A stretch of 44,136 nucleotides of DNA from an uncultured Alphaproteobacteria bacterium (GTDB taxonomy: Bacteria; Pseudomonadota; Alphaproteobacteria; Bin95): the NCBI GenBank assembly GCA_937891825.1, contig CALAHN010000141.1:1-44136 (forward strand). Direction: 5' to 3'. Positions 7,743 through 13,695 of this stretch are shown here, piece after piece. The notes beneath the pieces are model-generated. The model worked only from the letters and a program-made list of their open reading frames with translations. It made no database searches and had not been told where the DNA came from. Positions within the stretch are counted from its first letter, which is position 1. The number at the start of each line of letters is the position of its first letter. Both the position numbers and the translations under genes were made by a program.

Positions 7743-8177
7743 TTGCCGAAGCGTCGCCTCGATAATGACTTTGCGCTCAAGGCGCAGGACCGGTTGCGCG
7801 CCGCTGGGCTCCGCCCGACGCGGCAGCGCGTCGGGCTGGCGCAATTGCTGTTCAACGGCCCCTGCAGGCATCTGACGGCGGAGGATCTGTTCGCCGAAGC
7901 GGCGGCGGCGGAAATCAGCGTGTCGCTCGCGACGGTCTATAATACCCTGCACCAGTTCGTTGAAGCTGGGTTGCTCCGCGAAGTCCTGGCAGAGCCGGGC
8001 CGCGCCTATTTCGACACGGACGTTTCCAATCACCACCATTTCTTCCATGCCGATACCGGTATGCTGCAGGATATCCCCGAGGATGCGGTGGTCATCGCCG
8101 CGTTGCCGGCCGCGCCCGAGGGCGCGCGCATCGGCCGGGTCGAGGTGGTGATCCGGCTGGAGAAAGCCGGCGCCTGA
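7743..8177 (+). CDS. irr: Irr-type iron response regulator (Fur family)
   Basis: Fur-superfamily transcription factor. The 144 residues have an N-terminal winged helix (LRPTRQRVGLAQLLF; SLATVYNTLHQFVEAGLL) and a C-terminal dimerisation part. The HHH stretch at residues 97-99 (SNHHHFFH) is characteristic of Irr, which senses haem or iron status in alphaproteobacteria. The Cys-Pro haem-regulatory motif of Bradyrhizobium Irr is absent, and the one cysteine (Cys41) is in GPCRH. The start is TTG 7743 with AAGGA at 7730-7734; a TATAGT -10-like hexamer lies at 7710-7715. A perfect Irr-box palindrome lies just downstream, in front of rubrerythrin, which supports Irr over Fur, Mur or PerR. Confidence 0.88.
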   Translation: MPKRRLDNDFALKAQDRLRAAGLRPTRQRVGLAQLLFNGPCRHLTAEDLFAEAAAAEISVSLATVYNTLHQFVEAGLLREVLAEPGRAYFDTDVSNHHHFFHADTGMLQDIPEDAVVIAALPAAPEGARIGRVEVVIRLEKAGA

Positions 8178-8207
8178 CATCCCGGCGGCTCAGGCGGAAT
8201 TTCCTCC

Positions 8208-8254
8208 TTAGAATCCTTCTAAATTGTTGACATGCGGCTCCTCTGGTTCATATT
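8208..8254 (+). promoter_or_regulatory. Irr box (ICE motif) plus sigma-70 promoter of the rubrerythrin operon
   Basis: TTAGAATCCTTCTAA at 8208-8222 is a perfect TTAGAA-N3-TTCTAA palindrome matching the iron-control element bound by Irr. Four bases later comes an exact TTGACA -35 (8227-8232), with a -10-like CATATT (8249-8254, 16-bp spacer). The operator lies immediately upstream of the -35, so Irr binding could act positively or negatively. The leader to rubrerythrin would be roughly 100 nt. Confidence 0.8.
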
Positions 8255-8361
8255 CCTGTCAAGGCGGTATGATGGGCTGGCGCTAGTCGCTGCGGGGAGC
8301 AGCGCGGCGACGTTTGGCCGGTCGCTCATGCCTGGTCTTTAATGAAGGAGGGAGAATTCGT

Positions 8362-8778
8362 ATGTCGCTCAAAGGCACGAAAACCGAAGATAACCTGAAG
8401 GCGGCGTTTGCCGGCGAAAGCCAGGCGAACCGTCGCTATCTGTATTTCGCACAGAAGGCGGATGTTGAGGGCTACAACGATGTCGCCGCCGTCTTCCGCT
8501 CGACGGCCGAAGGCGAGACCGGCCATGCGCATGGCCACCTCGAATATCTCGAGGAAACCGGCGATCCGGCGACCGGCCTGCCGATCGGCGCGACCGACGA
8601 CAACCTCCGTGCGGCGGTCGCCGGCGAAACCCACGAATACACCGACATGTATCCGGGCATGGCGCGCACGGCGCGCGATGAAGGGTTCGACGAAGTCGCT
8701 GACTGGTTCGAAACCCTGGCGAAGGCCGAACGCAGCCACGCCGGCCGTTTCCAGAAGGCGCTCGACGAACTGTCGTAA
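8362..8778 (+). CDS. Rubrerythrin (diiron domain only)
   Basis: Ferritin-like diiron protein that reduces hydrogen peroxide. All ligand positions of the family are visible in the 138 residues: Glu19 ([10 protein letters not shown]), Glu52 and His55 (ExxH), Glu89 and Glu92 (GETHEY), Glu123 and His126 (ERSH). The C-terminal rubredoxin domain of classical rubrerythrin is missing, so an external electron donor is needed; the adjacent Fe-S oxidoreductase is an obvious candidate (inference). The start is ATG 8362, behind AAGGAGGGA (8345-8353). An in-frame ATG upstream at 8314 has no such site. Transcription is probably from the Irr-box promoter. Confidence 0.95.
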
Positions 8779-8866
8779 GCGCATTGCATGATTGTCGCCG
8801 GCGGCGGGCGGTTGCTCCGCCGCCGGCGCACTCATCCCCTATTCCCTTTCCGCCAAGGCAGATGCG

Positions 8867-10231
8867 ATGAGCGAAGGCAGTTTGGAAGCCCCGACCCGGC
8901 ATGCGCTGGATTGGAACAATCCGGATTTTACTGACCCCGCGAAGCTCGATGCAGAAATGCGTCGCATCTTCGACATCTGCCATGGCTGCCGTCGCTGCTT
9001 CAATCTGTGCGACAGCTTCCCGCGCCTGTTCGACCTTGTCGACGCCGCGCCGTCGGAAGAGCTCGACACCGTCGATTCCAAAGGTTTTCAGGGCGTCGTC
9101 GACGCCTGTACGCTGTGCGATCTTTGCTTCATGACGAAGTGCCCTTATGTGCCGCCCCATGAATTCGACCTGGATTTCCCGCATTTGATGCTGCGCTACC
9201 GGTTTGCCGAGAAGCAGGCGGGCAAGGTCGGCCTGATCGAGCGGCAGTTGACCGAGACGGACCGCAATGGCCGCCTGGCGGCGATTGCGCCCGGCGTCGC
9301 CAATTGGGCGAGCGCCACGGACAACAAGCTGACCCGCCCCTTGATGGAAAAAACCGTCGGCCTGCATCGGGACGCGGACCTGCCGAAATTCGTCGGCAAG
9401 CCCCTGGTCGCCCAGGCGGCCGCCAACCCCGCCGTCGTCAACGCCGCAGCGCCGGCCTATGGCCGCAAGGCCGTGATCTACGCGACCTGCTTCGCGAATT
9501 ACAACGAGCCGGATATCGGCATGGCGGCGCGGGACGTGCTGGCGAAGAACGGCGTTCAGACGGAAGTCACCTATGCCGGCTGCTGCGGCATGCCGCAATT
9601 GGAGCAGGGTGATATCGCTCGCGTCGCCGATCGGGCGAAGGCGATCGCGGCCGAAATGGTCCGCTGGGTCGACGATGGCTACGATGTGGTGGCATTGGTG
9701 CCATCCTGCGCGCTGATGCTGAAGTTCGAATGGCCGCTGATCCTCCCCGACGACGCGAACGTCAAACGCCTCGCGGCGGCGACCCGGGATGTCGCGGAGT
9801 ATGTCGTCGAAATTGCGAAGCGGGAGGGGCTGGCGGAAGGCCTGGCGCCGCTCGACGGCAATGTGACGGTGCATCTTGCCTGCCATGCCCGCGCCCAGAA
9901 CATGGGGCCGAAGGCGGCGGAGATGCTGCGAATGATCCCGGAGACCCGGATCGCCGTGATCGAGCGTTGCTCCGGCCATGGCGGCTCCTGGGGCGCCATG
10001 AAGGACAATTTCGAAGTCGCGCTCAAGGTCGGCAAGCCCGTCGCCCGGCAGGCCGTCAAGGCGCTAAAGCAAGCCGAGGAGAAGGGCAAGACGCAATATA
10101 TCGCGTCCGAGTGTCCGCTCGCCGGCCAGCACATCATTCAAGGGATCGAGCGGGAGGATGCGACCGCGAAGATCGCCCATGCCCCGCATCCGATCAAACT
10201 GTTCGCGCGCGCGTTTGGACTGCCGTACTAG
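8867..10231 (+). CDS. GlpC/HdrB-like iron-sulfur oxidoreductase
   Basis: Predicted soluble electron-transfer protein of 454 residues. The N-terminal third has two 4Fe-4S motifs: CHGCRRCFNLC, and CTLCDLCFMTKCP. The rest carries two cysteine-rich CCG-type domains as in GlpC and heterodisulfide reductase subunit B. The first has YAGCCGMPQ and PSCALMLK. The second has HLACHARAQNMG, ERCSGHGGSWG (Ser where the second Cys of CCG is usual) and SECPLAG. No membrane segment is seen. The start is ATG 8867, 88 bp after rubrerythrin, with a weak AAGG site; the frame is open further upstream. Likely cotranscribed with rubrerythrin and the DUF3501 gene, perhaps as the rubrerythrin reductase. Its substrate is unproven. 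Confidence 0.85.
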   Translation: MSEGSLEAPTRHALDWNNPDFTDPAKLDAEMRRIFDICHGCRRCFNLCDSFPRLFDLVDAAPSEELDTVDSKGFQGVVDACTLCDLCFMTKCPYVPPHEFDLDFPHLMLRYRFAEKQAGKVGLIERQLTETDRNGRLAAIAPGVANWASATDNKLTRPLMEKTVGLHRDADLPKFVGKPLVAQAAANPAVVNAAAPAYGRKAVIYATCFANYNEPDIGMAARDVLAKNGVQTEVTYAGCCGMPQLEQGDIARVADRAKAIAAEMVRWVDDGYDVVALVPSCALMLKFEWPLILPDDANVKRLAAATRDVAEYVVEIAKREGLAEGLAPLDGNVTVHLACHARAQNMGPKAAEMLRMIPETRIAVIERCSGHGGSWGAMKDNFEVALKVGKPVARQAVKALKQAEEKGKTQYIASECPLAGQHIIQGIEREDATAKIAHAPHPIKLFARAFGLPY

Positions 10232-10356
10232 ATCGATCTGCCAGTCTGGCGGAACCGCCCCCGTGGCGGATGCGTTGATCGGTACTAGATAAGCAGGGCG
10301 CGGACCGCGCGCCGCCTCGGATGCGCCGCCCCATAACGAAGAAGGAGACCTGCGCC

Positions 10357-10944
10357 ATGCCGCAGCGCCAGATCACGCTTGCCGACATCATGCCGCTTGA
10401 AGCCTATCTGCCGGTCCGCAAGGAAAAGCGGCGGGAAATGGCGGCGATCAAGAAGCATCGCCGGGTTGCGGTCGGCCCGTTCGCGACGTTCTATTTCGAA
10501 AGCTACGGGACCATGCTCTATCAAGTGCATGAGATGCTGGCGATCGAGAAGGGCGGCGCGGCGCAGATCCCCGACGAACTGGCGGCCTACAACCCCCTCA
10601 TTCCCCAGGGCCGCGAACTGGTCGCGACCGTGATGTTCGAAATCGACGATCCGGTGCGCCGGAAGACCGAGCTCGACCGCATGGGTGGCGTCGAGGACTT
10701 CATGTATCTGGAAATCGACGGCGAGCGGGCCGAGGGCCGGCCGGAAGAAGACGTCGACCGCACATCGGCGGACGGCAAGGCCTCAAGCGTGCAGTTCGTG
10801 CATTTCGACCTGACCGATGCGCAGGCGAAGGCGTTCGCCCAGCCGGGCGCACGGATTTTCGTCGGCATCGGCCATCCGAACTACAATCACATGGCTGGAA
10901 TGTCTGAAGCGACGCGGCAAGCCCTCGCATCCGATCTGGACTGA
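10357..10944 (+). CDS. DUF3501 family protein
   Basis: Conserved protein of unknown function, 195 residues, starting MPQRQITLADIMP at ATG 10357 behind GAAGGAG (10341-10347). Family-typical features include an early YLPVRKEKRREM segment, VGPFATFYFESYGTMLYQVHEM in two blocks, VATVMFEIDDP, and a C-terminal VGIGHPNYNHM with a His and Tyr that could be functional. There is no signal peptide and no membrane helix. It lies third in the rubrerythrin and Fe-S oxidoreductase cluster; from memory the same trio recurs in other bacteria. A role in peroxide or iron-redox stress is inferred only from this context. Confidence 0.85.
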   Translation: MPQRQITLADIMPLEAYLPVRKEKRREMAAIKKHRRVAVGPFATFYFESYGTMLYQVHEMLAIEKGGAAQIPDELAAYNPLIPQGRELVATVMFEIDDPVRRKTELDRMGGVEDFMYLEIDGERAEGRPEEDVDRTSADGKASSVQFVHFDLTDAQAKAFAQPGARIFVGIGHPNYNHMAGMSEATRQALASDLD

Positions 10945-11003: not shown

Positions 11004-11714
11004 ATGAAGACGGAAACCCATGGCAAGCTGATGCAAGTGTCGGTCGCGACCCTGGCGACGGCGCTGTTCAAGCGCGGCCTTCGCGGGCAGACCATCCAGG
11101 ACGTTCGGCCGGTGAAGCCGAAGGGCCGCAACATGGTCGGACCGGCCTTCACGCTCCGCTACATCCCGGCCCGGGAGGATCTGAACCAACTGGCTGCGTT
11201 CCGTAACCCGGATCATCCCCAGCGGAAGGCGGTCGAGACCTGTCCGCCGGGCTCGGTCCTGATCATGGACAGCCGGAAGGACCCGCGCGCCGCAAGCGCG
11301 GGCGATATTCTGGTGACGCGCTTGCAGATGCGCGGCGTCGCCGGCGTCGTGACCGACGGCGGTTTCCGCGATGCGATGCGGATCGGCGAACTGGAGATCC
11401 CGGCCTATCACAATCGGCCGAGCTCCCCGACCAATCTGACGCTGCATCAAGCTATTGAATTAGAAGGGCCGATTGGCTGCGGCGATGTCGGCGTCTTTCC
11501 GGGCGATATCCTGGTCGGCGACGACGACAGCGTCATCGTGATCCCCCAGCATCTGGCCGACGAGGTCGCCGACGAGGCGGTCGAGATGACCGCCTATGAG
11601 GATTTCGTCGTCGAGGAAGTGCGGGCAGGCAAGTCGATCACAGGTTTGTATCCGCCGACCAATGACGCCTCCCTAGCCGCCTTCGAGCTATGGCGGAAGG
11701 CCAACGGGCGGTAA
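11004..11714 (+). CDS. RraA-like / HMG aldolase family protein
   Basis: 236 residues of the RraA superfamily, whose members act as divalent-metal-dependent 4-hydroxy-4-methyl-2-oxoglutarate or oxaloacetate lyases or, in E. coli, as an RNase E inhibitor. Visible motifs are VATALFKRGLRG, GPAFTLRY, VTDGGFRD (substrate and metal loop) and GDILVGDDDSVIVIP. The GDVGVFPGD region is also conserved. The start is ATG 11004. It ends 7 bp before the ECF sigma gene, so the two are likely cotranscribed. Enzymatic lyase activity is more likely than RNase E regulation given its length and its C-terminal extension (inference). Confidence 0.85.
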   Translation: MKTETHGKLMQVSVATLATALFKRGLRGQTIQDVRPVKPKGRNMVGPAFTLRYIPAREDLNQLAAFRNPDHPQRKAVETCPPGSVLIMDSRKDPRAASAGDILVTRLQMRGVAGVVTDGGFRDAMRIGELEIPAYHNRPSSPTNLTLHQAIELEGPIGCGDVGVFPGDILVGDDDSVIVIPQHLADEVADEAVEMTAYEDFVVEEVRAGKSITGLYPPTNDASLAAFELWRKANGR

Positions 11715-11721
11715 CGCTCTC

Positions 11722-12270
11722 ATGGCGGAGACCCCGGAAAGTCTGGCGGCGCTGCTGGCCTCGGTCGCCGATGGCGACCGGAGCGCCTTCAAGTCGCTCT
11801 ATGAAGCGACGCATCTGAAACTTTTCGGCGTTATCGTGCGTATCTTGCAGCGTCGGTCGGTCGCCGAGGAGACCCTGCAGGACGTCTATCTCCGGGTCTG
11901 GAACAATGCGGGCGCATTCGACCCGTCGCGCGCCTCCGCCATCACCTGGATGGCGACGATCGCGCGGAACCGGGCCATCGACGAAGCGCGGCGCCGGACG
12001 CCCAGACTGGCTGTCGACGATGGGGAACTGGAGCGGGTCGTGGACCCGCAGCCGTCGCCCGCCCAGGCGGCGGAGCAATCGGAGGAAGCGGCGCGATTGA
12101 CGGAGTGCCTGGACGGGTTGGACAACGATCAGGCGGCGATGGTGCGCCTAGCTTATCTTGACGGCGCGACGCGGGAGATGCTTTCGAGCCGGTTCGGCTT
12201 GCCGGTCAGCACGGTGAAAACGCAACTCCGGCGCAGCTTGCTCAGGCTGCGCGCATGTCTGGAGGCATGA
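11722..12270 (+). CDS. ECF-type RNA polymerase sigma factor
   Basis: 182-residue group IV sigma factor. Region 2 includes EETLQDVYLRVWNN and ITWMATIARNRAIDEARRR. Region 4 is a helix-turn-helix with REMLSSRFGLPVSTVKTQLRR. Regions 1 and 3 are absent, as expected for ECF. The stop overlaps the anti-sigma start (ATGA), a usual arrangement for sigma/anti-sigma pairs of the SigK/RskA kind. A probable target promoter lies just after the anti-sigma gene (13061-13088). No sensor protein is seen besides the anti-sigma factor itself. Confidence 0.95.
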   Translation: MAETPESLAALLASVADGDRSAFKSLYEATHLKLFGVIVRILQRRSVAEETLQDVYLRVWNNAGAFDPSRASAITWMATIARNRAIDEARRRTPRLAVDDGELERVVDPQPSPAQAAEQSEEAARLTECLDGLDNDQAAMVRLAYLDGATREMLSSRFGLPVSTVKTQLRRSLLRLRACLEA

Positions 12271-13049
12271 TGGCGGGAGAGGACGACAGCATCGACCTGC
12301 TTGCTGCCGAGTATGTGCTCGGTACGCTGGATGCGGCTGAGCGGACCGCCGTCGCGGACCGGCGCGTCCATGACGCGGCACTGGATCGGGCGATCCGCGC
12401 CTGGGACGACCGGCTGGCGCCCTTGCTTGAAGGCGTGGGCGACGCCGCGCCCGGCGCGGGCGTGCTGGCGGCCGTCATGGCAAAAATCGACGATGGCGCG
12501 GCGCCGAAGCCATTGCGCGCGGAGGCGCGTCGTCCGCTCGTCAGCGGATCGAGCGAAGTCCTGGTCCTGCGGCGGCGGGTCGGGCGCTGGCGCGCCATCG
12601 CGGGCCTTGCCGTCGCAGCTTCGGTCGTGCTTGCGGCCGTTGTCGCGGTCAAGCCGAGCTTGATTGTCCCGGCGCCGGCCCCGCCGGATACCTATGTCGC
12701 GGTCTTCAATGATGGGGATGCGCGGCCGTCGTTCCTCTTGTCAATCGATCTGACGACCAGGCAGATGAGCATCCGTCCCATCGGCGCCGGTCGGCAGCCT
12801 GGCAAGGACTATGAGTTGTGGATTGTCTCCGAAGACCTGGGCGGCGCGCCGAGGTCGCTTGGCCTGTTGAACCCGGCTGAGCAATGGACGACCCGCCGCT
12901 TGAGCGACCTGACTCCGGGCCTGCTGCGCCGGGCGACCTTCGGCGTCAGCCTCGAGCCTGTGGGCGGCTCGCCGACCGGGCGGCCGACCGGACCGGCCCT
13001 GCATGGGACATTGCTGCCTGTAGACAATGACAGCGGCGGCGAAAAATAA
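12267..13049 (+). CDS. RskA-like transmembrane anti-sigma factor
   Basis: 260 residues. The N-terminal cytoplasmic part has the AAEYVLGTLDAAER signature of RskA-type anti-sigma domains without the zinc-binding HxxxCxxC of ZAS proteins. One membrane helix follows (about residues 110-128, IAGLAVAASVVLAAVVAV). The rest is a periplasmic RskA C-terminal domain (GKDYELWIVSE, FGVSLEPVGGSPTGRPTG). The start is chosen at ATG 12267, in a 4-bp overlap with the sigma gene; a GGAGG at 12261-12265 could serve this ATG or the next (12270). It presumably sequesters the neighbouring sigma factor until an envelope signal acts. Confidence 0.92.
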   Translation: MMAGEDDSIDLLAAEYVLGTLDAAERTAVADRRVHDAALDRAIRAWDDRLAPLLEGVGDAAPGAGVLAAVMAKIDDGAAPKPLRAEARRPLVSGSSEVLVLRRRVGRWRAIAGLAVAASVVLAAVVAVKPSLIVPAPAPPDTYVAVFNDGDARPSFLLSIDLTTRQMSIRPIGAGRQPGKDYELWIVSEDLGGAPRSLGLLNPAEQWTTRRLSDLTPGLLRRATFGVSLEPVGGSPTGRPTGPALHGTLLPVDNDSGGEK

Positions 13050-13060
13050 TCCCGGCGCGC

Positions 13061-13088
13061 TGAAACCTTCCATAACCTCCGACGTATC
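13061..13088 (+). promoter_or_regulatory. Putative ECF-sigma promoter (TGAAAC-N16-CGTATC)
   Basis: TGAAAC at 13061-13066 and CGTATC at 13083-13088 are separated by 16 bp. AAC in the -35 and CGT in the -10 are hallmarks of ECF promoters, and the pair equals the well-known SigW-type consensus. It starts 12 bp after the anti-sigma stop and points at the secreted DUF7282 gene about 190 nt downstream. This suggests that this gene is the local sigma factor's target. Confidence 0.55.
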
Positions 13089-13275
13089 TATCGGCGAGCC
13101 CACGTCATGGGCCGGGCTCTTGCGCGCCATCTGGCGTCAAGGGCGACGTGACATGCAGCGCAACGCGCCTTCGGGCGGACGCGCCGGCCATGCTCGCATC
13201 GATTGAAAACGATCGACATAGCCGCATTTCGGCGATCTTGCCGCAATCCGGGTCGATCAAGAACGGAGCGCATCC

Positions 13276-13695
13276 ATGAAACTCAAGACATCTCTCCTCG
13301 GATTCTCCGCCGCCGCCGTGCTGGCGACGTCAGCCTTCGCCGCTGCGCACATGCAGCTTGCCGTCATGGGCCAGGACCAGAGCGTCAATGCGGGCGCCAT
13401 CGTCGTCACTCAGGCCGTATCGGCCAATCGGGGCTGGCTGGTCGTGCACCGGACCGGCGACGACATGAAGCCCGGTCCGGTCATCGGTCATGCGCCGCTG
13501 CAGAAGGGCGAGAACCCAAACCTCGTCGTGACGCTGGATGAGGCCGTGACTCCCGGCCAGAAGCTGATGCTGATGCTGCACGGCGAGGAAGGCGGCATGC
13601 AGCCGGGCGTCTTCGAGTACTATTTGGGCGCTAAGGAAGACGGCCCCGTCAAGGTCGACGGCAAGCTCGTCATGGATGTCATCACCATCAAGTAA
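13276..13695 (+). CDS. Secreted DUF7282-type protein
   Basis: 139 residues with a signal peptide (KLKTSLLGFSAAAVLATSAFA, cleavage likely around residue 22-24), followed by one beta-rich domain. That domain has the pattern RGWLVVH, GPVIGHAPLQKGEN, LMLMLHGEEG and FEYYLG, resembling the DUF7282 family. No catalytic site is obvious. The start is ATG 13276 behind GGAG. It is monocistronic, with a structured 5' region and a perfect hairpin after its stop. It is probably a periplasmic or surface protein expressed from the ECF-type promoter as part of an envelope stress response (inference). Confidence 0.75.
   Translation: MKLKTSLLGFSAAAVLATSAFAAAHMQLAVMGQDQSVNAGAIVVTQAVSANRGWLVVHRTGDDMKPGPVIGHAPLQKGENPNLVVTLDEAVTPGQKLMLMLHGEEGGMQPGVFEYYLGAKEDGPVKVDGKLVMDVITIK

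Follow-up and report, generated by a model that had tools for sequence, protein, structure and literature searches.

A SigK-type sigma factor probably drives two promoters at the locus described here, that of a DUF7282 gene and, within its own coding sequence, one that serves its anti-sigma factor; this is, in our view, the best explanation of what was found in the window (the whole stretch of 44,136 nucleotides analysed). Both sites are copies of one bipartite motif, and their positions relative to the genes are given in table 1. If this reading is confirmed, the recognition sequence of the sigma factor would be readable from its own codons, promoter and protein evolution would be coupled at single bases, and an unusual feedback design that acts on the brake only would become testable. 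DUF7282, for its part, gains a likely regulator and likely regulon mates (fasciclin and MsrB).

Table 1. Features of the sigma locus, with positions in the window.
Feature	Position	Strand	Basis
RraA-like gene, 7 bases upstream of the sigma start	11004..11714	+	gene calls, domain match
SigK-type ECF sigma gene, 182 aa, two SigK-type cysteines	11722..12270	+	Pfam Sigma70_r2/r4
Intragenic promoter copy (predicted), TGAAAC-N17-CGTATC, sigma codons 32-41	11816..11844	+	exact match
RskA-type anti-sigma gene, 264 aa, overlaps the end of the sigma gene	12255..13049	+	RskA_C PF10099, E 1.3e-19
ECF promoter (predicted) of the DUF7282 gene: -35 TGAAAC 13061-13066, 16-bp spacer, -10 CGTATC 13083-13088	13061..13088	+	
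DUF7282 gene, 139 aa, start ATG 13276	13276..13695	+	PF23951, E 2.1e-19

The sigma/anti-sigma pair and the site ahead of DUF7282

The gene identities given in the earlier note were correct, the domain matches being sigma-70 regions 2 and 4, RskA_C and DUF7282. The sigma factor consists of regions 2 and 4 only, and the adjacent anti-sigma gene, which encodes the RskA_C domain, ends with TAA at 13047-13049. The DUF7282 match scores 70.2 bits against a cut-off of 27; the protein starts with what looks by eye like a signal peptide, contains seven methionines besides the first and is the only DUF7282 copy in the genome. Its structure is predicted as an all-beta, immunoglobulin-like sandwich (model mean pLDDT 74), and the fold search with this model returned chiefly immunoglobulin-like sandwiches. 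Foldseek gave no match at E 0.001 or better, and VIA-align scored highest, at Z 9.1, with one portion of a biofilm protein, all others reaching 7.1 or less; the model points to no specific fold relative. A literature search for DUF7282 by name found no paper.

The earlier note had spoken of a ‘SigW-type’ promoter. The consensus of Bacillus subtilis SigW promoters is TGAAAC-N16-CGTA, and the motif resembles it in both box sequences and spacing, so that this part of the description stands; the sequence of the sigma factor, by contrast, is of the SigK/RskA type. Its best solved relative is Mycobacterium tuberculosis SigK (4nqw, E 1.6e-30), far nearer than SigW (E 3.9e-10), and its partner is RskA-type; SigW membership was rejected on these grounds and on the scores of the SigW equivalogs (68.4 bits versus a cut-off of 209, and 59.5 versus 243). 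Both cysteines of the sigma factor align with cysteines of 4nqw, and both columns hold Cys in 43/43 thinned sigma relatives. As the NCBIfam SigK subfamily scores 153 bits, below its cut-off of 226, the protein is filed as SigK-type and not as SigK itself.

The motif reported just after the anti-sigma stop, ahead of the secreted gene, was found again: TGAAACCTTCCATAACCTCCGACGTATC occupies positions 13061-13088 of the + strand, with 11 bases between it and that stop. TGAAAC-N15-17-CGTATC has two matches in the window and none in 100 shuffles, and a scan of the 4.30-Mb genome, as proposed in the earlier note, returned these same two copies and no others. The neighbours recur as well. The order sigma/anti-sigma/DUF7282 on one strand is present in the window and in 11 further loci from alpha- and gammaproteobacteria, and TGAAAC-N15-17-CGTA lies between the anti-sigma stop and DUF7282 in every one of them (12/12, i.e. 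the window and 11/11 relatives).

The same association extends to loci in which the genes are separated. Relatives of DUF7282 were taken from 55 loci of named genomes, to which loci from other genomes were added; TGAAAC-N15-17-CGT occurs at most 300 bases upstream of DUF7282 in 40/61 loci, against 0.37 expected from the motif rate in the remainder of the same 61 loci. Most DUF7282 genes do not adjoin a sigma gene, and in the loci where it does not directly follow the pair, DUF7282 is in most cases nevertheless preceded by the motif. An RskA_C anti-sigma was detected in 31 of the 32 genomes of this latter kind versus 42/372 genomes of the class sample, two sets that differ in taxonomy, so that the figures describe an association and not a controlled rate; within the 32, one locus (L053) has the pair about 3.7 kb from DUF7282, two (L025 and L030) come from the same species, and the single genome lacking an RskA_C match is that of L059.

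The strict motif is absent upstream of DUF7282 in 21/61 loci. Four of these carry CGAAAC forms with CGT (L031, L035, L062 and L063) and five carry changed boxes (L050, L057, L066, L067 and L068), which leaves 12/61 with no fitting motif (L026, L027, L036, L040, L056, L058, L059, L070, L073, L005, L006 and L018). Weaker sites of the TTGAAC or CTGAAC type stand ahead of DUF7282 in L027, L036 and L059, and L005 offers only 126 bases of upstream DNA; the sigma search left out the genomes of L027, L036, L037, L040, L056, L060, L062, L070 and L073. Taken together, these comparisons show 13061-13088 to be the conserved promoter-like site of DUF7282, which marks the likely target of the sigma factor, and the earlier prediction of both recognition sequence and target is supported by the syntenic relatives and the wider set of loci alike.

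The DUF7282 transcript would have a 5' leader of about 181 bases, at the beginning of which two strong hairpins are predicted (13095-13150; -28.6 kcal/mol, z -2.7).

A second copy within the sigma gene

The only other exact copy of the motif in the genome lies inside the sigma gene, where it overlaps the residues L-K-L-F-G-V-I-V-R-I and is oriented towards the anti-sigma gene, which starts 411 bases downstream. In most relatives the same stretch of the sigma gene reads NNG AAA CTT TTY ... CGT ATC. Codon columns were compared across a set of 43 sigma genes that had been thinned at 80% codon identity; presence of the motif played no part in their selection. The Lys codon is AAA in 41/41 genes, other Lys columns being a mixture of AAG and AAA; the Arg codon is CGT in 39/41, and the codon preceding Lys is GCG, CCG, CGG or TCG in 38/43. 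The columns between the boxes are near expectation, with the exception of one Gly column, and so are those over most of the gene; excess uniformity was also seen elsewhere, e.g. at columns 138, 157, 167 and 168, with no promoter pattern.

At the level of the whole site, GAAAC-N17-CGT is present in 41/47 sigma genes from DUF7282-bearing alpha- and gammaproteobacterial genomes, when synonymous resampling by each gene's own codon usage gave a mean of 1.0 gene and a maximum of 6 in 1000 draws. An outside group of RskA-partnered sigma genes has it in 8/67 (resampling mean 0.6), six of the eight at the same codons. On a tree of 123 sigma factors, computed with the site columns left out by a fast method that gives weak deep support, the site requires 8 changes versus 39 for shuffled labels. 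Among 26 other sigma-70-family genes from five of these genomes, GAAAC-N16/17-CGT is absent in 25, and the sole positive adjoins another gene that looks RskA-like by eye; these 26 are what remains of 30 loci examined out of 67 matches when four already known RskA-partnered sigmas are set aside, and several of the longer ones are probably not ECF. On these comparisons of sequence, chance is rejected as the origin of the intragenic copy.

Two single cases may be noted. In genome G426, a second sigma gene (L264) that lies beside an RskA-like gene likewise carries the intragenic site, which occupies the same codons. The sigma gene of a Paracoccus marcusii plasmid (L216) falls within a motif-bearing part of the tree, yet is devoid of the site, and a short hypothetical protein gene stands where the anti-sigma gene is expected.

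The boxes of the intragenic site also change with those of the targets. Indeed, the boxes upstream of DUF7282 are those of the genome's own sigma gene in 46/48 paired genomes (41/42, 3/3, 1/1 and 1/1 by box type, with other types in none of these), although the genomes are related, many of them drafts, and some pairs nearly identical, so that the co-variation represents about four evolutionary events. The non-standard matching pairs are GGT with GGT in three close relatives, CGA with CGA in one genome and GCATC with GCATC in another. In the three Stappia-like loci with GGT, the DUF7282 promoter is TGAAAC-N17-GGTA and the fasciclin promoter has GGTA; the matching codons within the sigma gene are AAA CTT ... 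GGT ATC, Gly replacing a near-universal Arg. L050 has CGAAAC-N17-CGAA ahead of DUF7282 and CGA ATC in the sigma gene, Arg being retained. With L057, TGCATC-N17-CGTA forms the promoters of both DUF7282 and fasciclin in one genome, whose sigma gene has TCG CAT CTG ... CGT ATC, with His for Lys. The three box changes (CGT to GGT, CGT to CGA and GAAAC to GCATC) are thus all mirrored inside the gene, in two of the three at the cost of an amino-acid change. A similar tendency concerns the fourth base of the -10 box, which is G in the promoter of 6/6 genomes with an intragenic G versus 3/35 others (Fisher 1.9e-5), the six sigmas forming one small clade with one other row on the 123-sigma tree. Two loci depart from the pattern: L026 has an intragenic site and no motif ahead of DUF7282, and L058 has an intragenic TAGAT/CGC that does not match the GGT-type site ahead of its DUF7282. 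The loci with changed boxes supply the strongest evidence, and in the reading proposed here the intragenic site would be recognised by the same sigma factor.

Other variants were encountered. Two related sigma genes (L144 and L146) have an intragenic GAAAC...AGTATC or AGTATT, with Ser for Arg, and the stretch examined around them holds no matching AGT -10 site outside the sigma gene. In some RskA-type sigmas of the outside group, the codons resemble -35 boxes of the form GCATC or GCAAC. When 17 genomes were scanned for such codon-suggested boxes, the yield stayed at background, with 16 matches versus 16 for the reversed pattern; an extension of the scheme to RskA-type sigmas with other boxes is not supported.

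According to the earlier note, the motif is absent upstream of the sigma gene, which is true of the window, and the circuit may not be autoregulated at that point; this suggestion overlooks the intragenic copy, with its conserved codons and co-varying boxes. Among 47 motif-bearing sigma genes with at least 240 bases upstream (the rows of L016, a cut locus, being left out), 46 show no copy in the stretch of about 350 bases that precedes them. A TGAAAC-type promoter ahead of the sigma gene was likewise searched for and rejected in the 10 linked loci with enough DNA and in 30 loci of other genomes; L010 has only 18 bases ahead of its sigma gene, and L046 shows one loose AAC-N17-CGT. The one positive gene (L158, genome G353) has TGAAAC-N16-CGTATC at 989-1019, which is about 190 bases upstream, and the intragenic site as well; it could be under both positive and negative self-control.

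Proposed circuit, alternatives and regulon

In the circuit that we propose, the RskA-type anti-sigma would hold the SigK-type sigma factor, the release of which would bring RNA polymerase to promoters of the form TGAAAC-N16/17-CGTA. DUF7282 would then be transcribed, and in relatives also the fasciclin and msrB genes. Transcription starting from the intragenic site would yield a message with the anti-sigma gene and without a complete sigma gene; since it lacks the latter, the brake alone would be under self-control, and the active sigma factor would raise its own inhibitor and not itself, i.e. a negative rather than positive autoregulation. The sigma factor would have to be supplied from other promoters, and in the window its gene may be expressed, by co-transcription, from the unit of the RraA-like gene just upstream. 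The usual description of ECF sigmas is one of positive autoregulation, and the self-regulated promoter is what their target motifs are usually predicted from (PMC8103513). Several observations count against the proposed circuit: the distance from the intragenic site to the anti-sigma start makes for a long leader, the RskA-type sigmas of the outside group mostly lack the site, two of the 48 paired genomes disagree, other columns of the sigma gene show excess uniformity too, and 12 of the 61 DUF7282 loci have no fitting motif. For this clade of SigK-type sigma genes, we lean towards the view that a self-promoter lying in region 2 codons has been pulled along with a drifting promoter preference and has in places altered residues (Arg to Gly, Ile to Val, Lys to His) so as to keep pace with the target promoters, that self-regulation is purely negative and that each such gene carries a readable copy of its own recognition sequence.

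The holoenzyme could also bind at the intragenic site without making useful mRNA, the site acting as a pause, block or decoy, in which case negative autoregulation would result from interference. We consider this unlikely, even though the same codon conservation and the same box co-variation would be expected and the available excerpt of PMC10771440 describes intragenic sigma-binding sites as mostly inactive, with promoter-like pausing sequences. Indeed, the site faces an anti-sigma gene that overlaps the sigma gene, and in Corynebacterium glutamicum a promoter inside sigH does yield an anti-sigma transcript, as stated in the accessible part of PMC3489674. A start at this site might otherwise serve chiefly to produce a shortened sigma factor that lacks the first part of region 2 and is dominant-negative or altered. 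Many of the relatives inspected do have an in-frame ATG about 70-105 bases downstream of the site, but several loci (e.g. L080, L095, L174 and L214) have none nearby, and we regard this possibility as improbable.

Least credible of all is that the codons are kept by protein conservation together with codon bias or recent shared ancestry, the promoter match being fortuitous. It is true that the site lies over codons of sigma region 2 whose residues are conserved in any case. However, protein conservation would hardly account for a Lys codon that is invariant at the box and split between AAG and AAA elsewhere in a gene mostly near expectation, nor for 41 genes with the site against a resampled mean of 1.0; in a set of 17 sigmas that have this Lys-Leu and no motif, including the four with changed -10 boxes, AAG is used in 9 and AAA in 8. 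The sister sigma genes, 25/26 of which lack the site, and the intragenic boxes that changed along with the target boxes speak against it as well. A promoter for the anti-sigma gene, read by the sigma factor in whose gene it lies, is the explanation that we retain as probable.

The regulon in relatives gives an indication of what this circuit would control. The pattern TGAAACYYT-N12-14-CGTNNCT has 51 matches in 26 of 31 genomes versus 7 for the reversed pattern; these include promoters of DUF7282 along with sites shortly downstream of rskA and in other places, and some look like chance (e.g. that of L223, inside a gene). [TC]GAAAC-N15-17-CGT was detected at most 450 bases downstream of rskA in 18/30 genes, i.e. 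those from the fetched genomes of the 32-genome set, versus 1/67 in the outside group, a few members of which have under 200 bases downstream. At the sites inspected, the downstream genes are mostly MPT70/83-type fasciclin-domain proteins and MsrB. For five of these Pfam was used, which identified two as fasciclin, two as MsrB and one as a TPR protein, and the others were judged by eye; one of the two MsrB proteins has a twin-arginine signal just under the cut-off. In two related genomes (L116 and L118), the motif lies ahead of a secreted-looking TPR-repeat protein.

In the window genome, the patterns searched give the two sites of table 1 and one weaker match, at G000:C135:36343-36368 (L105), about 115 bases ahead of a LuxR-type response-regulator-like gene. 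The regulon may be very small there, or may have been partly missed, looser forms of the motif being outside the pattern scans.

The fasciclin proteins, the exported-looking MsrB and the methionine-containing DUF7282 suggest a common output in the protection of exported proteins against oxidation; we would hold the protection of exported proteins to be probable, and oxidation as its cause only perhaps so. Upstream of the sigma locus, consecutive genes for a Fur-family regulator, rubrerythrin, a cysteine-rich (CCG) protein and DUF3501 (7743-10944) form a possible peroxide-stress unit. Such neighbours agree with a role in protection from oxidation and prove nothing.

Comparison with known systems

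Besides the SigW promoter discussed above, three described systems share part of these features. The ECF16/NrsF (DUF1109) systems, BcrS-AbcS of Brucella and EcfF-OsrA of Bradyrhizobium, resemble the present one in that the targets of an ECF sigma are Msr genes and small secreted proteins. As far as the available parts of PMC8315932 and PMC3420878 go, they differ in their sigma and anti-sigma families, in the sequence recognised, (T/C)GTAAC-N17-CGAA, and in that their sigma gene is preceded by an autoregulated promoter of the conventional kind.

A second one is the SigK-RskA/MPT70/MPT83 system, with which the window locus has in common the sigma/RskA pair, both SigK cysteines and secreted targets; in some relatives of the window locus the motif also precedes fasciclin (MPT83-like) genes. 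The mpt83-sigK-rskA cassette occurs in Mycobacterium and also in Yersinia, and the genomic sigK of M. tuberculosis is autoregulated through Rv0449cp (PMC7509140, from the part available, which mentions no promoter inside sigK). The window differs in its linked target, DUF7282, and a search of its genome found no fasciclin match; the fasciclin target is a feature of the SigK-RskA cassette and not of the sigma family.

Our literature search found no description of a site early in a sigma gene that is conserved across classes, held by codons and co-varying with targets. The one experimental precedent that it did find is PrshA of C. glutamicum, which lies inside sigH, is sigma-dependent and transcribes only the anti-sigma gene, as shown experimentally, when the sigH-rshA transcript itself is SigH-independent (PMC3489674, as far as its text was available). 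PrshA lies towards the end of sigH and starts 62-66 bases upstream of the anti-sigma start, unlike the window site with its position in the early part of the coding sequence; the two sigma factors differ, the anti-sigma of C. glutamicum is ZAS-type, and the same portion of PMC3489674 makes no mention of conservation, codon constraint or co-variation. In both cases, on experimental evidence for PrshA and from sequence alone here, a promoter of the type used by the sigma factor would lie within the sigma coding region and face the anti-sigma gene.
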